Assembly: GCA_000830175.1 (NCBI GenBank)
Contig: JQIS01000013.1
Location: 1-35,732, forward strand
Origin: Sulfurovum sp. FS08-3
GTDB taxonomy: Bacteria; Campylobacterota; Campylobacteria; Campylobacterales; Sulfurovaceae
Length of the DNA: 35,732 nucleotides
Direction of reading: 5' to 3'
Part shown: positions 1,518 to 25,405 of the stretch, one piece after another
Numbering within the stretch: position 1 is the first letter of the stretch
Layout of the letters: the number at the start of each line of letters is the position of its first letter
Program-made: the position numbers and the translations under genes
The notes under the pieces: model-generated
What the model was told of the DNA's origin: nothing
The model's input: the letters and a program-made list of their open reading frames with translations, nothing else
Database searches by the model: none

Positions 1518-1829
1518 TTAATAGGGTTCGCAGATATTGTCTTCGCAATGATCCACATTGAGGCGTTTAAGTATCATTTCAAAAAAATCACCCCCTGTTC
1601 GGTGGACATCATCGTGAAACTCAATATAGATAGCTTGAATATCTTTGCGGTCGGTTGAGATTTTTTCAAAAATAAAGGGGGTGAGTCCCGTCTCTTTTTT
1701 GACGGCATCAATCACATTGTAAATATCTTCTTTCAAATCGTTATTGGTTTCAAAGAGGATATTTAATCCCTCATACCGCTCTTCCATGCGTACATAGGCT
1801 TTGATGCCTTTAAATACTCTGTTTTTCAT
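1518..1829 (-). CDS. Small conserved-looking protein of unknown function
   Basis: 103 residues, not recognised. The ATG at 1829 is chosen because AAGGAGAG lies directly upstream; a longer in-frame ATG at 1880 would begin inside a structured repeat and has no ribosome binding site. The product is hydrophilic with no signal peptide or membrane segment, rich in Glu, Asp and Lys, and ends with two cysteines (DHCEDNICEPY). The mixed alpha/beta pattern (..IYNVIDAVKKETGLTPFIFEKI..IQAIYIEFHDD..) suggests a small globular fold. It lies between rny and the cyclophilin gene, downstream of the hairpin repeats at 1854-2051, so its 5' leader probably contains those hairpins. Confidence 0.75.
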   Translation of the reverse strand: MKNRVFKGIKAYVRMEERYEGLNILFETNNDLKEDIYNVIDAVKKETGLTPFIFEKISTDRKDIQAIYIEFHDDVHRTGGDFFEMILKRLNVDHCEDNICEPY

Positions 1830-1853
1830 CTCTCTCTCCTTCTTTTTTAATTT

Positions 1854-2051
1854 AAAATATGTCTCCTTGAATTTGAACAAAGTCCAAATTCAATTCCTCT
1901 CACTAAAGCTTTGCCTTTGGCAAGAACCCTAAAATATGTCTCCTTAGGGATGAACAAAGTCCATCCCTAATTCCTCTCACTAAAGCTTTGCCTTTGGCAA
2001 GAGTTTGCGAAGTTCTCCTTGAATTTGAACAAAGTCCACATTCAACTCCTT
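1854..2051 (-). repeat. Three tandem hairpin units with compensatory stem changes
   Basis: Units begin at 1854, 1931 and about 2013; the third is partial. Each has a 9-bp stem enclosing the constant 9-base loop AACAAAGTC (plus strand): 1867-1893, 1944-1970 and 2019-2045. In unit 1 the arms are TTGAATTTG/CAAATTCAA; in unit 2 TTAGGGATG/CATCCCTAA, so five consecutive pairs differ and all five are compensated. Unit 3 repeats the unit 1 stem with one mismatch. Units 1 and 2 also carry a second hairpin, TTGCC-TTT-GGCAA, at 1911-1923 and 1988-2000. On the transcribed (minus) strand each variable hairpin is flanked by GAGAGGAA and AAGGAGA. It occupies the whole gap between the rny stop and the next gene. 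Confidence 0.88.
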
Positions 2052-2062
2052 GCTCTTACTGC

Positions 2063-3586
2063 CTACCGTGCCATACTTTCAGCTCTCACTTCACGAATGA
2101 CATTGACCTTGATCTCTCCTGGATATTGTACCTTATCTTCTATCTCTTTTGCAATGCTTTTGCTCAAAACCACCGCTTCGTTGTCGTTAATCTCATAAGA
2201 ATTAACAATCACGCGAATCTCACGCCCAGCATTAATAGCATAGGCACTAATGACTCCTGCTTTGGATAGTGCAATCACTTCAAGCTCCTTAACACGTTTG
2301 GTAAAGTTCTCCAATACCTCTCTTCTAGCCCCAGGACGAGCTGCCGAAATGGTATCAGCAGCACAAACCGCAGCCGATTCGATGGAGTTTGGCTCTTCGT
2401 GTCCATGGTGGGCGTAGATGGCATTAATGACAACAGGGTGTTCGTTGTATTTTTTGCACAACTTTGCTCCGATTTCGACGTGTGAACCACCCTCCTCTTG
2501 TGTGAGAGCCTTGCCAATATCGTGCAACAATCCCGCACGCAACGCCAACTTCTCATCTCCTCCCATCTCAGCTGCCATCACCGCAGCCAACTTGGCTACT
2601 TCAAGGGTATGGGCTAGAGAGTTTTGGCCGTAACTGGCTCGATATTTGAGTTTACCCAAAAGCTGTACGAGTTCTTTTTCCATCGGGAAGAGTCCTAGAT
2701 TGATAAGGATATTCTCTCCCTCTTCGTAAATCTTTTTCTCAAACTCTTTGGTAACGCTCTCATAAATCTCTTCGATACGAGCGGGGTGTATTCTACCATC
2801 TTCAATCAACAATTCAATGACACGCGAGGCAATGGCACGACGGTAGAGATTGAAACTACTCACAATAATGACTCCAGGAGTCTCATCAATGATAATATCA
2901 ACTCCCAATAGCGTCTCAAGGCTTTTGATGTTTCGTCCCTCTTTGCCAATAATGCGTCCTTTGTGTTCATCACTGGGAAGATTGACGACATTAATGAGCC
3001 GCTCTCCTGCAAAATCTCCTGCATAGCGGGTAGTGGCTTGGGCTATGATATAGTTAGCTTTGCGTTCACCCTCCTCTTTGGCAAGGCGTTCGTATCTACG
3101 CACAATGGCTGCTACTTCGGCTTTGCTTTGCTCTTCGACTCGATGGAGAATATAGGCTTTTGCCTCCTCTTTGGTCATAGAGGCGATGTGTTGCATCTTC
3201 TCTATAATCTCATGAATCTTTTGCTCTTTTTGCTCTATGAGTCGCCCTAAGCTCTCCTCTTTTTCTATTGCTCGACGTTTGATGCCTTGAATTTTTTGAC
3301 TTTGAGCCTCTATATTTTGACGCTTCTCTTCTAAAATACGAGCTTTTTTCTCCAACTCGTTAATCTTTTCTTGAAACTTCTTTTCAAGTTCTAGCTCATT
3401 GGCTTTGATTTTAATCTGGGCATCTTGAAGCTTTTTTTGGGCTTCAAACTCAATGGCATTGGCCTTTGCTTTGCCCTCTAGGACAAAGAGGTTGATGTGC
3501 TTAGCATTCTCCCTTTTTAAAAGCACATAGGAGATACCCGCACCCACAAGTGTACCCATAGCTCCTACGCTAATTATCTCAAACAT
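2063..3586 (-). CDS. rny: Ribonuclease Y
   Basis: Membrane-anchored endoribonuclease that initiates mRNA decay, expected in organisms lacking RNase E. Domains in order: an N-terminal membrane segment (residues about 4-24), a long charged coiled coil (about 25-190), a KH RNA-binding domain with its GKEG loop at 214-217, and an HD phosphohydrolase domain with H326, the HD pair H355-D356 and a histidine-rich AHHGHE near 392. The length of 507 residues is close to the family's usual ~510-520. The start ATG at 3586 is preceded by AAGGAA. The 3-formyl-THF-ligase-type gene lies upstream with a short gap; downstream are the hairpin repeats at 1854-2051. Confidence 0.97.
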   Translation of the reverse strand: MFEIISVGAMGTLVGAGISYVLLKRENAKHINLFVLEGKAKANAIEFEAQKKLQDAQIKIKANELELEKKFQEKINELEKKARILEEKRQNIEAQSQKIQGIKRRAIEKEESLGRLIEQKEQKIHEIIEKMQHIASMTKEEAKAYILHRVEEQSKAEVAAIVRRYERLAKEEGERKANYIIAQATTRYAGDFAGERLINVVNLPSDEHKGRIIGKEGRNIKSLETLLGVDIIIDETPGVIIVSSFNLYRRAIASRVIELLIEDGRIHPARIEEIYESVTKEFEKKIYEEGENILINLGLFPMEKELVQLLGKLKYRASYGQNSLAHTLEVAKLAAVMAAEMGGDEKLALRAGLLHDIGKALTQEEGGSHVEIGAKLCKKYNEHPVVINAIYAHHGHEEPNSIESAAVCAADTISAARPGARREVLENFTKRVKELEVIALSKAGVISAYAINAGREIRVIVNSYEINDNEAVVLSKSIAKEIEDKVQYPGEIKVNVIREVRAESMAR

Positions 3587-4166: not shown

Positions 4167-6000
4167 AATGCTCCATATTCTCTATAGTATAAAGTTTGGT
4201 TGATTGCGTTTTGCCTTTGAGCCAAAGGGTATCAAGGTACTTTATAGGATAGTAGGATTTAATCTCATCATAGACGCTTTGACTAAAGATAAGATAGGTT
4301 CCGTACTCTTTATTTATCCCCTCCAAGCGTGAAGCGATATTGACACTATCGCCAATGATGGTATAGTTTAGTCGCTCATTAGAGCCAATATTGCCCACAA
4401 GTGACTTGCCGTAGTGAATGCCAATGCGAGTTTTGAAGATAGGTTTGCCTTTTTTTATCCATCTTTGATTGAGTTCGTAAGTGAAGCGTTGTACCATCAA
4501 AGCACTCTCCATCGCTCTACGGCAAGGCTCTAGGACACTTTGAGGTGCTCCCCAAAACGCCAAAACGGCATCGCCAATGTACTTATCGGTAGTACCACCT
4601 GTAATATGAATCGCTTTATTGATAGCCTCAAAATACTCCGAAAGTTGCAAAGCAACCTCTTTGGGAGCCATCGCTTCGGAGATGGTTGTGAAGTTTTCTA
4701 TATCGGTAAACATAATAGCCAACTCCCTCTCCTCACCATCAACCTTTGCCTCTTGTCCTGCTATCATGAGTTTTTTGATAAGCTCAACGGGGAGGTATTT
4801 GATAAACGACGAGAGGGCTATTTGAAGCGATTTGAGCGAGGATTGGGCTTTGCGAATCTCAGATACCTGAGAGTTGTCTTGGATATCAATATCAAGCTTA
4901 AGTTTTTCGATGCTTTTGATTTGGTTGGCGATTTCGATGATGGGGTTTGAGAGCTTTTTGGAGGCGTAAATCACAATAGCAATAAAAAGCAACAAAATCA
5001 CAAAAGAGATAGCAATAGTCTCATACATGGTAGCTGTAATTTTGCCCAAAATCACCTCTTTGGGGATGATGATAAGCACACGCCAATTCATACCGCTAGA
5101 GTCTTTGGGAAAATTGGAGAAGAAGTAGAGATGCTCCTCTCCTCTTTTATCCTTGATAGAGCCTCTTGTTTGGGCGTAGCGGTTGTATTGAACGGTGGCT
5201 TTGCGTACGATGGGAGAGGGGGCAAAATCACCCAATTTGACTACATCTTGGGAAAAATCATCTTTGAAAGAGGTGGCAATAATGTTTTGGTCGCTATCAA
5301 ACATGACAATATTGCCCTCCACTTTGGTACTTTGTTCCACTAAAAAATCGTGCAGTTTTGTCGAGGTAATATCAGCACCTGCGACTTTGATTTTTGTCCC
5401 TTGTGGGTCAAAATAGGGACTGCTAATCGTAATGCCAATTTCATTGGATGAGGCGTATTTGTAGGGGCTAGACCAGTAGGTATCACGAGTGGCTTTGGTT
5501 AAATAAAACCAGCTACGTTCTCTTGGGTCAAAGGTATTGGGACGCACTTCATGTTTGATGGTATTAAATTGCTCATCAAGATACTCCCAATCCTCAATCG
5601 TGCCGTTGGTATCGTTGGAGATAGTACGCAAAATGAGCTGTGGATAGCGACGCAGTTGCAAAAAATCCCCATTGATATTGGCGATATAGATGCTGTTGAG
5701 ATAATCGTAACTGCCTAATTGCTCTTTCATAAGATTGCTTAAGATACTTTTATGTTGCAAAATATCTTTGTCTTGTGCGTTGAGCTTGGCAAGAATCTTG
5801 ACATGATTGGAGGAGATTTCAAGCGTTTTGTTGGTAACGTTTACGATATTAGCGGTAATCTCTTTTTGTACTTTGTCGAGCATAATATAAGACAAATCGT
5901 AAGATTTATAAAAATTATAGACAATCAATATAGCCGCTACCGTGCTTAGAAGTACAGTAAAGAGTTCACTAAGCTTTATCGAAAACTTTTTGGTACGCAC
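4102..6000 (-). CDS. Membrane class III adenylate cyclase with periplasmic Cache-type sensor
   Basis: Predicted to make cAMP from ATP in response to an extracytoplasmic cue. Order: transmembrane helix 1 (about 12-30), a periplasmic double-Cache-like sensor (about 31-320, with DPRERSWFYLT, YWSSPY, ISSPYFDPQG), transmembrane helix 2 (about 325-346), a HAMP-like linker and the catalytic domain. Metal-binding D433 (FTDIENF) and D477 (YIGDAVLAFWGAP) are present, as are K473 and D551 typical of adenine selection and transition-state N554 and R558 (GDSVNIASRLE). The catalytic site therefore appears intact. The start is GTG at 6000, with AAGGAG about 6-7 bases upstream. The C-terminal tail after LYTIE overlaps the next gene by 65 bases. 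Guanylate cyclase activity is less likely from the K/D pair. Confidence 0.9.
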   Translation of the reverse strand: MRTKKFSIKLSELFTVLLSTVAAILIVYNFYKSYDLSYIMLDKVQKEITANIVNVTNKTLEISSNHVKILAKLNAQDKDILQHKSILSNLMKEQLGSYDYLNSIYIANINGDFLQLRRYPQLILRTISNDTNGTIEDWEYLDEQFNTIKHEVRPNTFDPRERSWFYLTKATRDTYWSSPYKYASSNEIGITISSPYFDPQGTKIKVAGADITSTKLHDFLVEQSTKVEGNIVMFDSDQNIIATSFKDDFSQDVVKLGDFAPSPIVRKATVQYNRYAQTRGSIKDKRGEEHLYFFSNFPKDSSGMNWRVLIIIPKEVILGKITATMYETIAISFVILLLFIAIVIYASKKLSNPIIEIANQIKSIEKLKLDIDIQDNSQVSEIRKAQSSLKSLQIALSSFIKYLPVELIKKLMIAGQEAKVDGEERELAIMFTDIENFTTISEAMAPKEVALQLSEYFEAINKAIHITGGTTDKYIGDAVLAFWGAPQSVLEPCRRAMESALMVQRFTYELNQRWIKKGKPIFKTRIGIHYGKSLVGNIGSNERLNYTIIGDSVNIASRLEGINKEYGTYLIFSQSVYDEIKSYYPIKYLDTLWLKGKTQSTKLYTIENMEHYATQKSFSTTLPWKTSKDSSS

Positions 6001-25340: not shown

Positions 25341-25405
25341 CATTGCGAGGCACAAAGCAATCTATAATGTTCGAGATTGCTTTACCCTAAAGGGTTCGCA
25401 ATGAC
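25341..25405. repeat. Dispersed palindromic repeat, copy 2
   Basis: A two-part hairpin: CATTGCGA (25341-25348) pairs with TCGCAATG (25396-25403), and AAAGCAATCT (25354-25363) pairs with AGATTGCTTT (25374-25383), with ATAATGTTCG as loop. The right arm also contains ACCCTAAAGGGT. The arm 25374-25405 recurs at 9-40. It lies 4 bases 3' of the epimerase stop, and may end that transcript. The first two bases of the left arm (GT) appear to have been separated by the IS110 insertion. Confidence 0.8.

Follow-up and report, generated by a model that had tools for sequence, protein, structure and literature searches.

A dispersed repeat family with a transcript-strand fold at ribosome-binding sites in Campylobacterota

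We observed that three repeat units, all on the minus strand, lie between the rny stop codon and a 103-aa gene in the window (the whole 35,732-nucleotide stretch of Sulfurovum sp. FS08-3 DNA that was analysed). They are best read as members of a new small mobile repeat family, marked by structure on the transcript strand and by its unusual landing site. This is one homologous family at many unrelated sites, with a fold on the sense strand, a preference for one kind of site and presence/absence polymorphism. The ~77-nt element is probably a mobile repeat of Campylobacterota, dispersed and non-autonomous, which transcripts tolerate and which lands at ribosome-binding sites. It is apparently undescribed so far, as no description was found in the literature searched. 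Rfam 15 gave 0 gathering matches in the window and none credible at E up to 5 across positions 1500-2400, and in the loci carrying copies it matched host RNAs only.

The features of the array are listed below; the hairpin 1 and AAGGAGA assignments were read from the sequence.

1518..1829, minus: downstream gene, 103 aa, family not recognised (no match in Pfam or NCBIfam)
1835..1841, minus: AAGGAGA, candidate Shine-Dalgarno (SD) sequence of the downstream gene (ATG at 1829-1827)
1853..1930, minus: unit 1, stem type A, complete core, closest to the downstream gene (covariance model R1, 88.7 bits in its own genome; repeat family D1)
1862..1868, minus: AAGGAGA past unit 1 hairpin 2, resembling a Shine-Dalgarno sequence; the hairpin foot overlaps its first two A
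1867..1893, minus: unit 1 variable hairpin 2, UUGAAUUUGGAC-UUU-GUUCAAAUUCAA, 12 bp (G-U versus A-C asymmetry, 149 distinct stems)
1894..1910, minus: unit 1 conserved linker AGCUUUAGUGAGAGGAA, whose GAG pairs with CUC 5' of hairpin 1
1911..1923, minus: unit 1 hairpin 1, UUGCC-AAA-GGCAA on the transcript (covarying helix, 91 GTDB copies)
1930..2007, minus: unit 2, stem type B, complete core element (R1 match, 92.2 bits)
1939..1945, minus: AAGGAGA past unit 2 hairpin 2
1944..1970, minus: unit 2 variable hairpin 2, UUAGGGAUGGAC-UUU-GUUCAUCCCUAA
1988..2000, minus: unit 2 hairpin 1 (also alignment A1)
2014..2045, minus: unit 3, 5'-truncated, stem type A with one mismatch (repeat family D1), comprising hairpin 2 at 2019-2045 and AAGGAGA at 2014-2020
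2046..2051, minus: AAGGAG left of the array, matching ACAAGGAGAC at the equivalent place in genome G003
2063..3586, minus: rny, ribonuclease Y, the upstream gene (TIGR03319, 573.8 bits)

The original prediction had described these units, the second hairpin (TTGCC-TTT-GGCAA), the AAGGAGA after each variable hairpin and five consecutive stem changes between units 1 and 2 with five matching changes in the partner arm, and all of this was reproduced. Units 1 and 2 are 86% identical across 73 nt, and their differences (TTGAATTTG versus TTAGGGATG and CAAATTCAA versus CATCCCTAA on the plus strand) fall within the variable hairpin. The prediction had also placed a fixed loop in a 9-bp stem. The sequence of that loop is indeed shared, but it is not an unpaired loop: GACTTTGTT pairs internally around UUU, and the inner pairs (G·U, A-U and C-G on the transcript) make the stem 12 bp with a UUU triloop. 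The AAGGAG at 2046..2051 is likely to be the SD that originally followed the stop codon of rny. The AAGGAGA at 1835..1841 probably serves the downstream gene.

The order of units is A'-B-A in the own genome (G000) and A-B in its near-identical relative G003 (L076/L260), which has a complete type A unit where the own genome has the truncated unit 3. Since both genomes carry A and B, both stem variants predate their split, and the third unit in the own genome is a later rearrangement of the array. By this comparison of sequences, the five stem changes are not one recent event in the array. In the more distant G002, an ortholog of the 103-aa gene follows rny without the element, across a short gap with AAAGGAG only.

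Searching the own genome with the conserved linker turned up further copies, and alignment A1 and model R1 were built from twelve units. Against that genome, unit 2 scored 92.2 bits and unit 1 scored 88.7 bits, with E values near 1e-17 to 1e-18 that speak against chance; as both had trained R1, the independent evidence comes from the many copies outside the training set. In the own genome R1 gave 16 matches, of which 13 were strong. It also matched 28 of the 60 relatives and, in a sample of 397 Campylobacterota genomes, 65, which cover 15 of 68 genera. An independent DNA pattern scan of GTDB, which required AAGRAGA by construction, gave at least 117 stretches. Among the matches listed, every named record was from Campylobacterota, the cultured Sulfurospirillum arcachonense DSM 9755 and Sulfurovum sp. 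AR among them. The same type of scan in IMG/VR found no copy in viral contigs. The element is scattered through sulfur-oxidising Campylobacterota.

We observed that 25 of 124 copies were closest to another copy of their own genome, against 2.4 expected when labels were shuffled, an excess that phylogeny could partly explain. Two subfamilies can be distinguished. In one (GAGGAAUU..AAGGAG) the start codon is close, and in the other (GAUGAAUU..AAGAAG) it lies 17-55 nt off, often in front of a ribosomal protein gene, dnaK, tkt or a nitrogenase gene. The correlation of GAGG/AAGGAG versus GAUG/AAGAAG (98/13/0/28) may reflect merely these two subfamilies. Four loci of G024 (L096 at 5190-5306, L097, L098 and L099) share one extra linker hairpin, TTTATCCCATAAAAT..ATTTTATGGGAGCCC, at different genes, a pattern that suggests recent spread of a derived subfamily.

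On the transcript strand the layout is CUC-[UYGCC-AAA-GGCRA]-AGCUUUAGUGA-GAG-GAAUU-[variable 12-bp hairpin, UUU loop]-AAGGAG. The core has three helices, all covarying, and the conserved motif AGCTTTAGTGAGAGGAATT; the linker AGCUUUAGUGAGAGGAA is the best-conserved stretch in alignments A1 and A4, and AAGGAGA stands at the equivalent position in most copies. In A1, 95.8% of cells were paired and 57 cells showed double changes, against 18.5 in shuffles (0 of 500 shuffles reached 57). The 91 GTDB copies, in an alignment fitted to the model, were 92.6% paired with double changes at 18 of 20 pairs. When the alignment was unconstrained, RNAalifold recovered hairpin 2 alone, with double changes in 10 of 11 pairs, so that hairpin 1 rests mainly on model-guided alignments. 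Thermodynamic folding of the 5' part favours an alternative helix, CUCUYGC/GUGAGAG, but reciprocal double changes support hairpin 1; switching between the two is conceivable. A further 5' hairpin, GAAAC..GTTTC, occurs in about 25 copies (26 versus 3 shuffled at equal score) and gives a long form near 125 nt. Several copies (L096-L099, L074, L106, L130, L132) carry additional inserted hairpins in the linker. We also considered a short peptide encoded in the hairpin (AUG/UUG/GUG GAC UUU GUU) or an open reading frame through the element; by inspection the frames differ between copies, and this was rejected.

Covariation had been taken to point to selection for RNA structure and not simply to a DNA repeat. 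Known REPs are also palindromic, however, and covariation alone cannot tell an RNA from a DNA hairpin repeat. The constraint on the sense strand was instead established from mismatches. Stem geometry was set by Watson-Crick pairs only, and mismatches were counted in 149 distinct stems: G-U outnumbered A-C by 151 to 24 (p=1e-23), and by 67 to 19 in the outer stem (p=2e-7), counts in which G-U is possibly inflated by common ancestry and by a collecting model that tolerates G-U. A double-stranded DNA palindrome predicts equal numbers, so the excess indicates that the sense strand is constrained; it also allows a single-stranded DNA hairpin. The predicted structured, covarying family is borne out by many genomic copies with a strand-specific fold that Rfam does not match.

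AAGGAG directly follows hairpin 2 and usually lies 6-9 nt ahead of a start codon, the GGAG-to-start spacing peaking at 8 nt. As the GTDB set needs AAGRAGA, the fair test of the site uses the 97 model-found copies, for which AAGGAG was not required. A start codon was found 8-16 nt past hairpin 2 in 41 of these 97, against 19 of 388 antisense control windows. This distance was seen in 79 of 93 AAGGAG copies versus 3 of 15 AAGAAG copies (p=1e-6), most of the latter being 17-55 nt from the start. No copy lies inside any real protein gene; overlaps with long frames are antisense open frames, apparently by chance. The sense orientation is not absolute, since at L056 and L108 the copies found between tRNA genes run antisense to them.

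RNase P RNA contains five copies (L055, L057, L064, L141, L202), in the P12 arm as judged by position, and two more copies lie just 5' of 16S rRNA (L140, L153). RNase P RNA length ranged from about 315 to 503 nt across the surveyed genomes. In the 30 rnpB loci surveyed, matches to the element were weak and non-credible and most long inserts were something else, so elements other than the ~77-nt repeat may use this site.

The prediction had called the units a possible small mobile RNA repeat, and this comes close to the evidence. Dispersed copies are polymorphic between close relatives. In the genes compared, the own genome shares about 95% identity with G003 and with G004. The element is present at the L084 gene in G004 and absent from G000 and G003, the junction having GGAGGCTAACAAATGAAA left and GGAGATTAAAAAATGAAA right of the insert. 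The L036 gene carries it in both G000 and G003 but lacks it in G004. C51 has three units in G000 versus none in G003, and at the L088 gene both G000 and G003 retain remnants without hairpin 2. At L170 the element is flanked by a perfect 21-nt repeat, AGGAGACATTAGTATGAAATA, that spans SD, spacer and start codon, with similar flanking repeats at L061, L096 and L084. Flanking-repeat scores of at least 11 were reached by 10.8% of copies versus 0.8% of shuffled pairings, some of the top scores being tandem arrays. Most copies show no flanking duplication, and the clear ones are few. At the L086 gene the element-free sites of G000 and G003 have no AGGAG at that place, so the SD there may have arrived with the element. 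On the left side of the core, ATGAAA was seen in 23% of the copies, compared with 7% of control windows; in long copies it may belong to the element's own 5' hairpin. Further hairpin repeats adjoin the element in the flanks at L036, L035 and L040 (C22, C51 and C67 of the own genome): one, GTAGGTGYGACCRTGTCRCAC, is a GTAG-type REP-like repeat with its own compensatory stem change, and the others are CATTCCACCTCAGGAGAGGTGGAACG and GTGGGACTTTAGTCCCAC. In the window itself, another palindromic repeat of the ATTGCTTCACCCTAAAGGGTTCGCAATGAC type lies at 11-45, downstream of cmoB; its TTCGCAATGAC recurs exactly at 25395-25405, and a similar sequence is found in G003 (L277).

For a mobile repeat of this kind, insertion at the SD would duplicate the SD-to-start stretch, and the upstream gene would then retain its stop codon while a working ribosome-binding site would be left to the downstream gene. 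Copies strongly prefer the gap immediately 5' of an SD and start codon, and AAGGAG thereby stays at optimal spacing. The folded RNA domain may hold its two ends near each other, which would limit damage and explain survival even inside rnpB. The source of new copies is the least certain step. They may arise by template switching or another copying route with the ubiquitous AGGAG and ATGAAA as microhomologies, which would explain duplications of variable length bounded by those motifs, or through an enzyme acting in trans. The array in the window would have begun as such an insertion, placed between rny and its neighbour, and have been amplified in tandem later. A stricter version, in which the element homes to ribosome-binding sites because an RNA or a template-switching DNA copy recognises the SD and ATGAAA, duplicates the SD-to-start stretch and so spares the gene, appears rather unlikely.

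A function for the host is also on the doubtful side. Here hairpins beside the SD would protect the processed mRNA 5' end or tune translation, and copies would be kept for that benefit. The pairing constraint on the sense strand fits this, as do hairpin 2 abutting the SD at ideal spacing and GAUG/AAGAAG copies often placed about 28-43 nt before highly expressed genes (rplK, rpmA, dnaK and tkt, for example). In about ten gene families (purQ, aroC, aroE and dnaK among them) the element also recurs across distant genomes. Such recurrence is consistent with long retention, perhaps with some benefit, although vertical descent may account for it. A structured cis-regulatory RNA would, however, be expected at a coherent gene set, whereas grouping of the 129 downstream proteins gave about 100 unrelated sets with no regulon, and copies also sit within rnpB and ahead of 16S rRNA. 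Presence is patchy, with visible decay in near-identical genomes. The same breadth speaks against the suggestion that the repeat regulates the downstream gene or rny mRNA decay. Its appeal was that the element lies between the two genes and that RNase Y is an mRNA decay enzyme. As the element precedes so many other genes, and the G002 rny-small gene junction lacks it, the link to rny is one insertion only; the element is not a regulator of rny, and a role specific to rny or the small gene has next to no probability.

IS200/605-like insertion is not known to make target duplications, and this counts against the idea that a RAYT (Y1 transposase), acting on a single-stranded DNA hairpin, moves the repeat as an element of REP/BIME type, an origin that we regard as very unlikely. 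The two are alike in some respects: both are small palindromic intergenic repeats, dispersed, with tandem copies and probably transcribed, and a single-stranded DNA hairpin would likewise favour G-T over A-C. Sulfurovum NBC37-1 has known GTAG and CGTC REPs, a class found mostly on the downstream side of coding regions (PMC3733652). The element is longer than the 20-40 bp REP palindrome and has no conserved unpaired GTAG/CGTC end tag, GTAG occurring only in the GGCGTAGC subset. It has three helices, a conserved single-stranded linker and flanking duplications in some copies, and it is found at the starts of genes, not downstream of them. Nor is it tied to RAYT genes, as G004 (11 copies), G017 (7) and G041 (5) have no Y1_Tnp (PF01797) match. 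Searches with PF01797 and PF00078 found no mobilising enzyme tied to the element, and Y1 transposase and reverse transcriptase were rejected as required partners, since several element-rich genomes lack both.

Palindromes are tolerated in functional genes and RNAs in the case of Rickettsia palindromic elements and the STRR-type repeats in RNase P RNA, including the rnpB P12 arm. The ~77-nt element resembles Rickettsia palindromic elements (RPE; PMC10969869) and STRR repeats in being a palindrome tolerated inside a functional RNA, P12 arm included, but it differs in sequence and phylum and is intergenic at ribosome-binding sites, with none in real protein genes. With MITEs (including ERIC/RU-type; PMC10969869, PMC2759123) it shares being non-autonomous, short and intergenic, with presence/absence polymorphism and, in some copies, a possible target duplication. 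Unlike MITEs it has no terminal inverted repeats (the helices are local, and the 5' CUC/GAAA and 3' AAGGAG ends are not inverted repeats), the duplicated stretches begin at the SD and differ in length, and no parent IS was found with PF01797 and PF00078.

The small repeats known from bacteria are for the most part DNA-tagged and placed between genes or downstream of them. The element described here shows a sense-strand constraint, sites at housekeeping start codons and in rnpB, and apparent insertion by duplication of the ribosome-binding site. Together, the unusual site, the strand constraint and the apparent duplication make it a natural experiment in how mobile DNA can spare operons and how a structured RNA beside the SD bears on translation. 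Copies in the cultured Sulfurospirillum arcachonense and Sulfurovum sp. AR make the element experimentally tractable.
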